From contig JALSKD010000193.1 of NCBI GenBank assembly GCA_026989015.1, forward strand, positions 1 through 37,444: a stretch of DNA of 37,444 nucleotides. Reading direction: 5' to 3'. The DNA is from Gammaproteobacteria bacterium (lineage in GTDB: Bacteria > Pseudomonadota > Gammaproteobacteria > GCA-001735895). The notes under the pieces were generated by a model, which saw only the letters and a list, made by a program, of their open reading frames with translations, was not told where the DNA came from and did not search any database. Positions 14,417 through 33,207 of this stretch are shown here, one piece after another; the stretch's first letter is position 1; every line of letters begins with the position of its first letter. Both the position numbers and the translations under genes were made by a program.

Positions 14417-14522
14417 GTTGTGCCGGGCGCTTTCGCCGCCGGCCCTCTGTCGGCGTACAAAAAACGGTCCCGGCCGTTGATTATTCTCTGCCGTCGGGTA
14501 TCATACGCGTCCTGTTTGATGC

Positions 14523-14599
14523 AGGCGCGTAGCTCAGTTGGTTAGAGCACCACCTTGACATGGTGGGGGTCGTTGGTTCGAATCCAATCGCGCCTACCA
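14523..14599 (+). tRNA. tRNA-Val (GAC)
   Basis: The cloverleaf is 77 nt. The acceptor is AGGCGCG / CGCGCCT, and the D arm is GCTCAGTTGGTTAGAGC. The anticodon stem is CCACC / GGTGG with loop TTGACAT (anticodon GAC), and the T arm contains GGTTCGAATCC. The discriminator is A and CCA is encoded. Confidence 0.97.
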
Positions 14600-14611
14600 C
14601 ATTTCAGAGTC

Positions 14612-14636
14612 GGGCCCTTCGGGGCCCTTCCTGTTT
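14612..14636 (+). terminator. Hairpin after tRNA-Val, probable terminator
   Basis: GGGCCC (14612-14617), a TTCG loop and GGGCCC (14622-14627) are followed by TTCCTGTTT. The stem is strong but the T run is broken, so some readthrough into thrS is plausible. Confidence 0.6.
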
Positions 14637-14647
14637 CCGGCACGCGG

Positions 14648-14677
14648 CCTTTGGTAGGGGTCGCCACTGACCAAAGG
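14648..14677 (+). promoter_or_regulatory. thrS leader hairpin that includes the Shine-Dalgarno sequence
   Basis: CCTTTGGT (14648-14655) pairs perfectly with ACCAAAGG (14670-14677) across a 14-nt loop. The 3' arm contains AAAGGA, the ribosome-binding site for the thrS ATG at 14685. When folded, initiation would be blocked. E. coli thrS is translationally autoregulated by the synthetase binding tRNA-like leader hairpins, so a similar operator is plausible; the fold here is simpler. Confidence 0.5.
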
Positions 14678-14684
14678 ATCAGCC

Positions 14685-16598
14685 ATGCCCCGTATTACCC
14701 TTCCCGATGGCTCGCAGCGCGAGTACGATCAACCCGTAACCGTCATGCAGGTGGCCGAGGACATCGGTCCCGGTCTCGCCCGTGCGACCCTGGCCGGCAA
14801 GGTCAACGGACGGCTGGTCGATGCCGCCTACCGCATCGAAGACGACGCCGATCTGGCCATCATCACCGCCCGTGACGACGAGGCGCTGGAGCTGATGCGC
14901 CACGATGCGGCACATGTGATGGCGCAAGCAGTCCAGGAACTCTATCCCGGAACCCAGGTGACCATCGGGCCGGCCATCGAGGACGGCTTTTACTACGACT
15001 TCGCCCGTGAGGAGCCCTTCACCCCGGAGGATCTGGAAAAGATCGAGCAGCGCATGCACGAGATCGTCAAGCGCGATCTGCCGATACAACGCGAGGTGCT
15101 GGACCGCGACGAAGCCAAGCGGGTGTTCGACGAGCTGGGCGAGAAATACAAGGTGGAAATCATCGACGAGATCATCCCCGAAGGGGAAGAAGTGTCGATC
15201 TACCGCCAGGGCGACTGGTTCGATGTCTGCCGGGGGCCGCATCTGCCGTCCACCGGCAAGCTGGGCAAGGGCTTCAAGCTGATGAAGGTGGCCGGGGCCT
15301 ACTGGCGCGGCGATTCGCGCAACGAAATGCTGCAACGCATCTACGGTACTGCCTGGCGCGACAAAAAGGAGCTCAAGGCCTACCTGCACCGCCTCGAAGA
15401 GGCCGAGAAACGCGACCACCGGCGCATCGGCAAGCAGCTCGACCTGTTCCATATCCAGGAAGAAGCGCCTGGCGAGATCTTTTGGCACGACCGTGGCTGG
15501 ACCCTGTACCAGACCGTTCAGCAGTACATGCGCGCGAAGCAGCGCGCCCACGGCTATCAGGAGATCAATACGCCACAGCTGGTGGATTTCTCGCTGTGGG
15601 AGAAGTCCGGGCATGCCGCCAAGTTCGGCGAGGACATGTTCACGCTGGAGGCCGAGGGCCGTCAGTTCGCCATCAAGCCGATGAACTGTCCCTGCCATGT
15701 GCAGGTGTACAACCAGGGGCTGAAGAGCTACCGCGATCTGCCGCTGCGGCTGGCCGAGTTCGGCTCCTGCCACCGCAACGAGATGTCGGGCGCGCTGCAC
15801 GGACTGATGCGGGTGCGTGCCTTCGTACAGGATGACGCCCATATCTTCTGTACCGAAGACCAGATCCAGTCAGAGGTCAGTGCGTTCATCGACTTCCTGC
15901 ACGAGGTCTATGCCGATTTCGGTTTCGACGAAGTGATCTATCGCTTGTCCACACGGCCCGAGAACCGGGTCGGCGACGATGCGGTATGGGACAAGGCGGA
16001 ACAAGCCCTTGCCGACGCCCTCAATGCCAAGGGGCTGGACTGGGAGGAGTTGCCCGGTGAAGGCGCTTTCTATGGCCCCAAGATCGAATTCACGCTGAAG
16101 GACTGCCTCGGCCGTGAATGGCAGTGCGGCACCATCCAGGTCGATTTTTCCATGCCGGGCCGTCTCGATGCCCAGTATGTCGCCGAAGACGGATCGCGCC
16201 AGACTCCGGTCATGCTGCACCGGGCGATACTCGGTTCCTTTGAGCGCTTCATCGGTATCCTGATCGAACATCATGAAGGCCGCATGCCGCTGTGGCTGGC
16301 CCCGGTGCAGGCGGTGGTCATGAATATCACCGATCATCAGGCCGAGTTTGTCGATGAAGTCGAAAAAACCTTGAAACAACAAGGCTTGCGGGTGATTTCC
16401 GACTTGAGAAACGAGAAGATCGGCTTTAAAATCCGCGAGCACACGCTGCAGCGCATCCCCTACCTGCTGGTGGTCGGCGATCGCGAAATGGAGCGTGGCG
16501 AAGTGGCCGTGCGCAGCCGCAGCGGCGAGGATCTGGGCGCAATGTCGATCGACGACTTCGCACAGATGGCCCGCCAGCAGATCGAGCGTCACGACTGA
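14685..16598 (+). CDS. thrS: Threonyl-tRNA synthetase
   Basis: The protein is 637 aa, full length. This class II synthetase charges tRNA-Thr and edits mischarged serine. Domains in order are TGS (1-60), the N2 editing domain with [11 protein letters not shown] and the GFYYDF motif, and the class II catalytic core with zinc-site residues including the Cys of [10 protein letters not shown]. Class II motif 2 is [22 protein letters not shown], and the core also shows [12 protein letters not shown] and [18 protein letters not shown]. The C-terminal anticodon-binding domain ends at [17 protein letters not shown] 14685 has AAAGGA 7 bp upstream, inside a hairpin. infC follows after 27 bp, the usual gammaproteobacterial order. 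Confidence 0.97.
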
Positions 16599-16625: not shown

Positions 16626-17147
16626 ATCGCAGCTGACAAGAAACCTCGTCTCAATGACGAGATAACCGCCCCTGAAGTCCGCCTGATCGACGAAAACGGT
16701 GAACAGAAGGGTATCGTGACCCTCGACGAGGCCAAGGAGGCTGCCGCCAGAACCGAACTGGATCTGGTGGAAATCGTACCCAACGCGGAACCGCCGGTGT
16801 GCCGGCTGATGGATTACGGCAAATTCCGTTTCCAGCAGAAGAAGAAACTGCACGACCAGCGCAAGAAACAGCGCCAGGTGCAGATCAAGGAAATCAAGTT
16901 CCGACCGGGTACCGATGAAGGGGATTACCAGGTCAAGCTGAAGAAGCTGCAGAAGTTCCTCGAGGCCGGCGACCGCGCCAAGATCACGGTGCGTTTCCGC
17001 GGCCGCGAGATGGCGCACATGGAACTGGGCCGCGAACTGCTCAAGCGGGTCGAGGACGACCTCAGCGAGATCGCGGTAGTGGAGCAGCATCCGCAATCCC
17101 AGGGACGGCAGATGACCATGCTGATGGTGCCGCGCAAGAACCGCTGA
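16626..17147 (+). CDS. infC: Translation initiation factor IF-3, AUC start
   Basis: The protein is 173 aa. It binds the 30S subunit, prevents subunit joining and proofreads initiator tRNA and start codon. Sequence from ATC 16626 reads [20 protein letters not shown], the conserved IF-3 N-terminus, and continues through [19 protein letters not shown] to the C-terminal domain ([19 protein letters not shown]). No ATG, GTG or TTG is available between the thrS stop and this point; the first ATG-type start in frame, at 16716, would delete 30 conserved residues. GAGGAA lies 8 bp before the ATC. infC genes are known for AUU and other non-AUG starts, which allow IF-3 to repress its own translation. Confidence 0.92.
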
Positions 17148-32112: not shown

Positions 32113-33207
32113 GTGAACACGACCGAAGAAATCATCGAAGACCTCAAGGCGGGCCGCATGGTCATCATCATGGATGACGAAGACCGCGAGAACGAAGGCG
32201 ACCTGCTGATGGCCGCCGAGGCGGTACAGCCCGAGCACATCAACTTCATGGCCCGCTACGGCCGTGGCCTGATCTGCCTGACGCTGACCCAGCAGCGCTG
32301 CCAGCAGCTGCGCCTGCCGTTGATGGTGGGTGACAACAAGGCCCAGCTGGAAACCAACTTCACCGTATCCATCGAGGCCGCCGAGGGCGTGACCACCGGC
32401 ATTTCGGCCCATGACCGGGCCGTCACCGTGCAGGCGGCGGTCAAGCCGGATGCACGGCCCGACGACATCGTGCAGCCGGGCCACATCTTTCCGCTGATGG
32501 CGCGGCCGGGCGGCGTGTTGGCCCGCGCCGGCCATACCGAGGCCGGCTGCGACCTGGCGCGGCTGGCCGGTTTCGAGCCGGCCGCGGTCATCGTCGAAAT
32601 CCTCAATGAAGACGGCAGCATGGCGCGGCGGCCAGATCTGGAAGTCTTTGCCCGCGAGCATGACCTCAAGATCGGCACCATCGAAGACCTGATTCGCTAC
32701 CGCATCGAAAATGAAAAAACCCTCGAGCGCATCGTCGAAACGCCGTTTCCCACCGATTTTGGTGAATTCCGCCTGATCGCCTACGAGGACGCCATCGACC
32801 AGGAACTGCATCTCGCCGTGGTCAAGGGCGAGATCGACCCGGACAAGCCGATCGCGGTACGCGTGCATGTGCAGAATACCCTGCACGATGCGCTGTTCGG
32901 CACCGTCGGTCGTGGCTGGCCGCTGCGTGATGTGATGAAAAAGATCTCGACGATGGACAGCGGGGTGATCGTGTTTCTGCGTCAGCCTGAATCGCCGCGC
33001 GACATGGTGCAGAAGATCGAGGCCATGCTGCGCGATGAGCACGAGCACAAGGCGCCGGCCCACGACGACGACCTGCGTACCTTCGGCATCGGCGCGCAGA
33101 TCCTCGCCGACCTGGGCGTGCACAAGATGCGGTTGCTCAGCGCGCCCAAGAAATTCCACGCGCTGGCCGGCTTCGGGCTGGAAGTCGTGGATTACATTTC
33201 TGATTGA
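32113..33207 (+). CDS. ribB: 3,4-dihydroxy-2-butanone 4-phosphate synthase with degenerate GTP cyclohydrolase II domain (RibBX)
   Basis: The protein is 364 aa. Its N-terminal domain makes 3,4-dihydroxy-2-butanone 4-phosphate from ribulose 5-phosphate. The acidic loop [10 protein letters not shown] is at residues 21-30, and [16 protein letters not shown] carries the catalytic His/Glu. The C-terminal domain resembles GTP cyclohydrolase II but has no cysteine at all; where the zinc motif and RVHSECLTGD belong it reads [14 protein letters not shown]. It therefore cannot bind the catalytic zinc and is the RibBX type known from other proteobacteria. A working RibA must lie elsewhere in the genome. 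The start is GTG 32113, preceded by GGAG. No FMN riboswitch is seen upstream. Confidence 0.93.

Follow-up and report, generated by a model that had tools for sequence, protein, structure and literature searches.

The thrS operator, worked out in Escherichia coli, is a classic example of tRNA mimicry. Synthetase genes can also be controlled from the leader by tRNA itself, as in T-box leaders, which bind uncharged tRNA, and an anticodon mimic in mRNA is said to exist for yeast threonyl-tRNA synthetase (ThrRS) as well. According to the accessible parts of PMC11088916 (also PMC9976931 and PMC7373986), the E. coli operator is built of four domains, of which II and IV resemble the anticodon loop of tRNA-Thr, and ThrRS binds these two domains and prevents binding of the 30S subunit.

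Here, the thrS leader of a Gammaproteobacteria bacterium was analyzed in a window of 37,444 nucleotides (nt), which is the whole stretch of DNA under study (contig JALSKD010000193.1 of assembly GCA_026989015.1); the features of the thrS region, from the promoter match to thrS itself, lie on its forward (+) strand. The leader belongs to the class of domain II-type mimics in a reduced, one-arm layout. It shares domain II and the ribosome site with the four-domain operator (I to IV) of E. coli, without domain IV, and the full four-domain description does not fit. In contrast to a T-box, this leader RNA mimics a tRNA, and its expected ligand is the enzyme. Recognition by a synthetase of an anticodon look-alike in mRNA would be shared with the mimics for yeast HisRS and AspRS, as presented in the accessible part of PMC6542539, but these are eukaryotic, occupy other mRNA positions and carry no claim of sequence relation. 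A survey of the thrS operator outside E. coli was not found in the mainly open literature searched, and one may exist.

The anticodon-arm mimic upstream of thrS

The thrS gene (14685 to 16598) encodes a full-length ThrRS of 637 amino acids that aligns from end to end with E. coli ThrRS (58% identity), including the N-terminal domains and a retained anticodon-binding domain. Asn575, Arg589, Glu600, and Arg609, which we take to be the anticodon contacts of ThrRS, are all kept. The conserved element of the leader is a hairpin at 14641 to 14669, ending 3 nt before the Shine-Dalgarno (SD) sequence AAAGGA (14673 to 14678), and it reproduces the anticodon arm of tRNA-Thr. Its 6-bp stem is formed by a 5′ arm GCGGCC (14644 to 14649) and a 3′ arm GGUCGC (14659 to 14664). 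The nine bases between the arms, UUUGGUAGG (14650 to 14658), were read as position 31 (U), a seven-nt anticodon loop (UU-GGU-AG), and position 39 (G). An NGU triplet is found in the anticodon-like loop of a hairpin immediately 5′ of the thrS SD, in this case GGU, a Thr anticodon, at positions 34 to 36 (14653 to 14655). A CACUG tail (14665 to 14669) follows the stem, and its last two bases provide lower pairs, C14641-G14669 and A14642-U14668 (5′ side, 14641 to 14642).

In all 34 thrS leaders read, the window included, the SD was closely preceded by the hairpin, with six or five of the six pairs; in one of them (L025) it was placed by eye, and another (L030) had U at column 30 and no CACUG tail. 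The form shared by relatives was GTGGCC-UUUGGUAGG-GGTCAC-CACTG, with variants. The model also located the mimic in G004 and G017, two further genomes of the family, and its match in G024 repeats leader L035. No model match was obtained in G001, the other genome of the genus, where the contig ends at the equivalent of 14632, or in G016 and G018, where the thrS match begins at a contig end. The leader set does not include a second thrS-like match present in family genome G030 (C404). An alternative in which CACUG pairs with the 5′ flank AGUGG was rejected in favor of the lower pairs C4-G32 and A5-U31, since the GCGG of the window breaks the AGUGG pairing while CACUG stays unchanged.

Covariation, homology, and distribution

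Alignment A1 was made up of 24 of the 34 leaders read, with repeats removed, and model R1 was built from these 24 with the E. coli sequence excluded. The stem was paired in 97.2% of A1 cells and three pairs showed double changes (shuffled mean, 0.2); two of the five measures were not distinct from shuffles (87 and 90 of 500). Alignment A2 held 101 distinct rows, with 100 sources hand-picked for variety from the loci at hand, and gave model R2. Here 99.2% of cells were paired, all six pairs carried double changes (51 double-change cells against a shuffled mean of 10.0), and none of 500 shuffles equaled A2 on any of the five measures. Sliding the register by one to three columns reduced pairing to 17 to 66%. 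The second pair changed from U-A to C-G, the type in the window, in 24 rows and the fifth from C-G to U-A in 20, and the fourth was unpaired in five rows. The two lower pairs were formed in 99.0% of A2 cells, and a longer, E. coli-like lower helix (columns 1 to 4 with 32 to 35) was paired in 50.5% of cells, above shuffles.

For the anticodon tally, nine of 171 matched rows were omitted (five without thrS and four of other length), and from the remaining 162, 156 distinct leaders were obtained, of which 152 are at most 20 nt from the start; the window and E. coli lie outside the 156. The weak matches L077 and L111 were kept out of the table, and L147 was lengthened to 35 columns. Positions 35 and 36 were G-U in all 156 leaders. 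The triplet at 34 to 36 was CGU in 84, GGU in 51, AGU in 14, and UGU in 7, covering all four Thr anticodons. Position 33 was U in 142, position 37 was A in 143 and G in 13, and the tail read CACTG in 141. The G35-U36 count is partly circular, since leaders were gathered by model similarity and the first set was read with the NGU rule; such sampling favors G-U invariance but not the freedom at position 34.

The leader of E. coli K-12 reads GTGATC-TTTCGTGTG-GGTCAC-CACTG, and R1 detected this hairpin over all 35 columns (23.6 bits; E value, 4.5e−7 in 801 bases). Judged by sequence and structure, the mimic is homologous to domain II of the E. coli operator, which likewise lies 5′ of the SD and has a 6-bp stem, an NGU anticodon-like loop, and the CACUG tail. 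The window differs in having GGU rather than CGU, in a stem richer in G-C, and in that bases of the mimic stem and loop are also able to pair with the SD. PDB entry 1kog, listed for the E. coli enzyme, presumably contains this domain II RNA. In scans of the window, its leader, and the E. coli leader with Rfam 15, only tRNA genes reached the gathering score, and neither the T-box nor the threonine operon leader did; Rfam-based annotation would therefore miss the element. Exposure of E. coli lines to borrelidin was accompanied by a change at 1,802,589, which the authors supposed to weaken the operator, a suggestion given as unvalidated in the accessible part of PMC13148393. This base corresponds to column 30 of the element, where every one of the 156 leaders in the tally and 23 of the 24 A1 rows have C, a hint that the CACUG tail matters.

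R1 matched 126 of 369 Gammaproteobacteria genomes, leaving 243 without a match. Of 124 matched rows fetched, 119 ended 4 to 53 nt before a thrS start and five had no adjoining thrS. R2 matched 127 of the 369, losing one genome and gaining two, both gains being at thrS. In a sample of 299 genomes from the phylum, 46 were matched; four of these were outside Gammaproteobacteria, none beside thrS, and were set aside (three, from one family, lay by eye in an apparent glutamate synthase gene, and the fourth lacked thrS within the 835 bases retrieved). Among 80 named ThrRS loci, 48 had an R1 match (E ≤ 0.1) 5′ of thrS on the same strand, with Pseudomonas, Marinobacter, Marinomonas, Halomonas, Zooshikella, Chromatocurvus, and Thiohalobacter among the matched genera; in the others, the element was absent or diverged. 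The mimic is thus far from universal in the class, being present next to thrS in roughly one-third of the genomes sampled. The 35-nt signature allows the thrS operator to be traced across Gammaproteobacteria and separates the parts that are held (G35-U36, the C-A/U-G lower pairs, and the CACUG tail) from those that vary (position 34 freely and the stem bases pairwise).

Some thrS leaders missed by R1 carried what by eye was a diverged mimic. Four of them, from Methylophaga and similar bacteria (L085, L108, L120, and L144), read GGCC-CTTTGTATC-GGCC, or GGTC/GGTCG variants, with AACC downstream and a different lower stem; L094 was a further diverged case. One genome held a near copy of its own thrS operator (L231; G343:C18:33392-33426) with no thrS in the fetched stretch, and this second copy may be a stray duplicate or a decoy.

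From these comparisons, it is highly probable that the thrS leader of the window carries a translational operator bound by ThrRS, namely the anticodon-arm mimic at 14641 to 14669. ThrRS binding, ribosome exclusion, and feedback would follow by homology with E. coli. When in excess over tRNA-Thr, ThrRS would grip the mimic through its C-terminal anticodon-binding domain, and the bulky dimer would keep the 30S subunit from the adjacent SD and AUG. tRNA-Thr would compete for the enzyme and so relieve repression. The original prediction had also proposed that ThrRS controls its own mRNA as in E. coli; that function is strongly supported by the covarying domain II-type mimic, but the route it proposed, a stem hiding the ribosome-binding site, is not supported.

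The stem over the Shine-Dalgarno sequence and alternative readings

The predicted stem is present as a perfect 8-bp helix, with CCTTTGGT (14648 to 14655) complementary to ACCAAAGG (14670 to 14677) across a 14-nt loop. The SD lies in and just beyond its 3′ arm, and the thrS ATG (14685) comes 7 nt past the stem. Its 5′ arm is made of the end of the mimic 5′ arm and most of the mimic anticodon loop, and the two hairpins therefore overlap and are mutually exclusive. This was the one perfect 8-bp stem (loop, 3 to 20 nt) in 14600 to 14710, and at least one arose in 2.65% of 2,000 dinucleotide shuffles of that 111-nt leader. The 37-kb window holds 50 such stems, so the SD stem is mildly unusual locally, yet not rare.

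The stem is not conserved. When the 5′ side was compared with the sequence running to the start codon in 29 family leaders, Watson-Crick complementarity extended to at most 3 bp in 20, 4 bp in 6, 5 bp in 2, and 8 bp in the window alone, and none of the 28 other leaders contained the ACCAAAGG arm. No sign of selection for SD-stem complementarity was seen across 152 distinct gammaproteobacterial thrS leaders, where the mean match was 3.70 bp against 3.64 (standard deviation, 0.06) for permuted arm/tail pairs, or 5.16 against 5.31 with G-U allowed. An 8-bp match was reached in one of the 152 (L199) and also in 18 of 9,120 mismatched arm/tail pairs. Since the stem pairs are not kept in orthologous leaders, the structural claim made for this stem is unsupported. 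The SD-covering stem is an alternative fold common to no examined relative and has most probably arisen by accident or as a local refinement or switch, and the case illustrates that a perfect hairpin covering an SD can be misleading if a conserved fold overlaps it.

Folded in isolation, the SD stem was more stable than the mimic (−13.8 versus −10.4 kcal/mol). It dominated the predicted ensemble in four of five stretches, and the mimic was favored in 14620 to 14700 (probability, 0.66). Single-sequence folding was not decisive, since the minimum-energy fold of 14600 to 14720 contained neither hairpin (z, −0.45). In a growing RNA, the mimic had a probability of 0.90 to 0.99 up to 14668 and of at most 0.17 once 14678 was reached; at 14678, the SD stem stood at 0.91 to 0.93 for three start points and further on at 0.07 to 0.94, all hairpin probabilities being equilibrium values for naked RNA. 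In the window, the SD stem is therefore predicted mostly to outcompete the mimic once transcribed. Among the 152 leaders, the predicted mimic probability was at least 0.5 in 92 and below 0.1 in 28. The mimics of relatives are thus often predicted to be weak, yet covariation indicates that they matter.

These folds could be taken to indicate a two-state switch particular to this lineage, in which both the mimic and the SD-burying stem contribute and each precludes the other, the mimic forming first and the SD stem taking over at 14678. If so, thrS would be translated mainly in a short co-transcriptional interval and would have two exclusive off states, one with ThrRS bound and one with the SD buried by the later, more stable helix. 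Two states that are both off would make for odd regulation, the arrangement was seen in one genome only, and the frequency of 8-bp matches in mismatched pairs also speaks against it; we regard such a switch as unlikely. Fainter still is the prospect that the hairpin serves some other factor, as a docking site for ribosomal protein S1, an RNase site, or a standby site, with the NGU loop incidental. Conservation of the CACUG tail and of the C-A/U-G lower pairs equals that of the loop, and in E. coli S1 docks on thrS mRNA beside the domain II-type hairpin (accessible part of PMC3858243). An invariant G-U beside a free position 34 is, however, what a Thr anticodon would lead one to expect, and binding of ThrRS is established for the E. 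coli homologue (accessible part of PMC11088916). Least probable of all is that the SD-sequestering stem at 14648 to 14677 is itself the regulatory element, held closed or opened by ThrRS or another factor, since its perfect pairing, isolated stability, and predicted dominance at 14678 are set against matches of 3 to 5 bp in the other family leaders and a class-wide mean close to that of permuted pairs.

The locus around the probable operator

Upstream of the mimic, a tRNA-Val(GAC) gene (14523 to 14599) was identified by ARAGORN and Rfam (RF00005), preceded by a match to a σ70-like promoter (TTGATT-16-TATCAT, 14477 to 14504; 9 of 12 positions in a consensus scan only). The description of thrS as lying directly behind tRNA-Val needs amending, as the tRNA gene is indeed upstream but a terminator-like hairpin (GGGCCC-UUCG-GGGCCC, 14612 to 14627, followed by UUCCUGUUUC; pattern scan) stands in between. 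This UUCG hairpin falls within the 44 nt that separate the tRNA end at 14599 from the mimic stem. A second anticodon-like arm, corresponding to domain IV, was not found in 14600 to 14643 by a rule that also misses E. coli domain IV, and the lack of room behind tRNA-Val is therefore the stronger argument against such an arm.

E. coli domain IV lies by eye about 75 to 115 nt before the thrS start. Among 157 leaders for which 280 nt or more could be inspected, tRNA-Val(GAC) was upstream on the same strand in 73, and less than 75 nt from the stem in 46, counts in which some genomes enter twice via two collections. In many leaders, the tRNA gene is too close for a domain IV, and since it is often nearer than the E. 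coli spacing, one-arm thrS leaders are probably common. That the upstream tRNA-Val stands in for the missing domain IV is a reading weaker still than the two-state switch. A strict rule identified a second mimic in 6 of 152 leaders, where mononucleotide shuffles would give 0.55, and this rule undercounts, since E. coli domain IV escapes it.

A terminator with a UGU loop in one family leader (L002) was considered as a second mimic and dropped, being absent by eye from the other family leaders read. Tandem mimics before thrS were plain in L075 (915 to 986) and L198 (37 nt apart) and probable in L111 (∼920 to 975), and L186, L192, L205, and L215 may be further cases. These are short arms side by side, unlike the spaced domains II and IV of E. 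coli. Linkage of tRNA-Val(GAC) to thrS was widespread in the class, and the gap from the tRNA end to the operator stem was sometimes less than 20 nt, which suggests co-transcription.

Two further features of the window were recorded. An 87-nt tRNA-Gly(ACC) called by ARAGORN at 32504 to 32590 fell below the Rfam tRNA gathering score and is probably a false call. The gene next after thrS, infC (encoding IF-3), has an apparent AUC start at 16626 to 16628 (GAGGAACAAACCC-AUC-GCAGCUGAC), which is comparable to the AUU start through which E. coli IF-3 controls its own synthesis.
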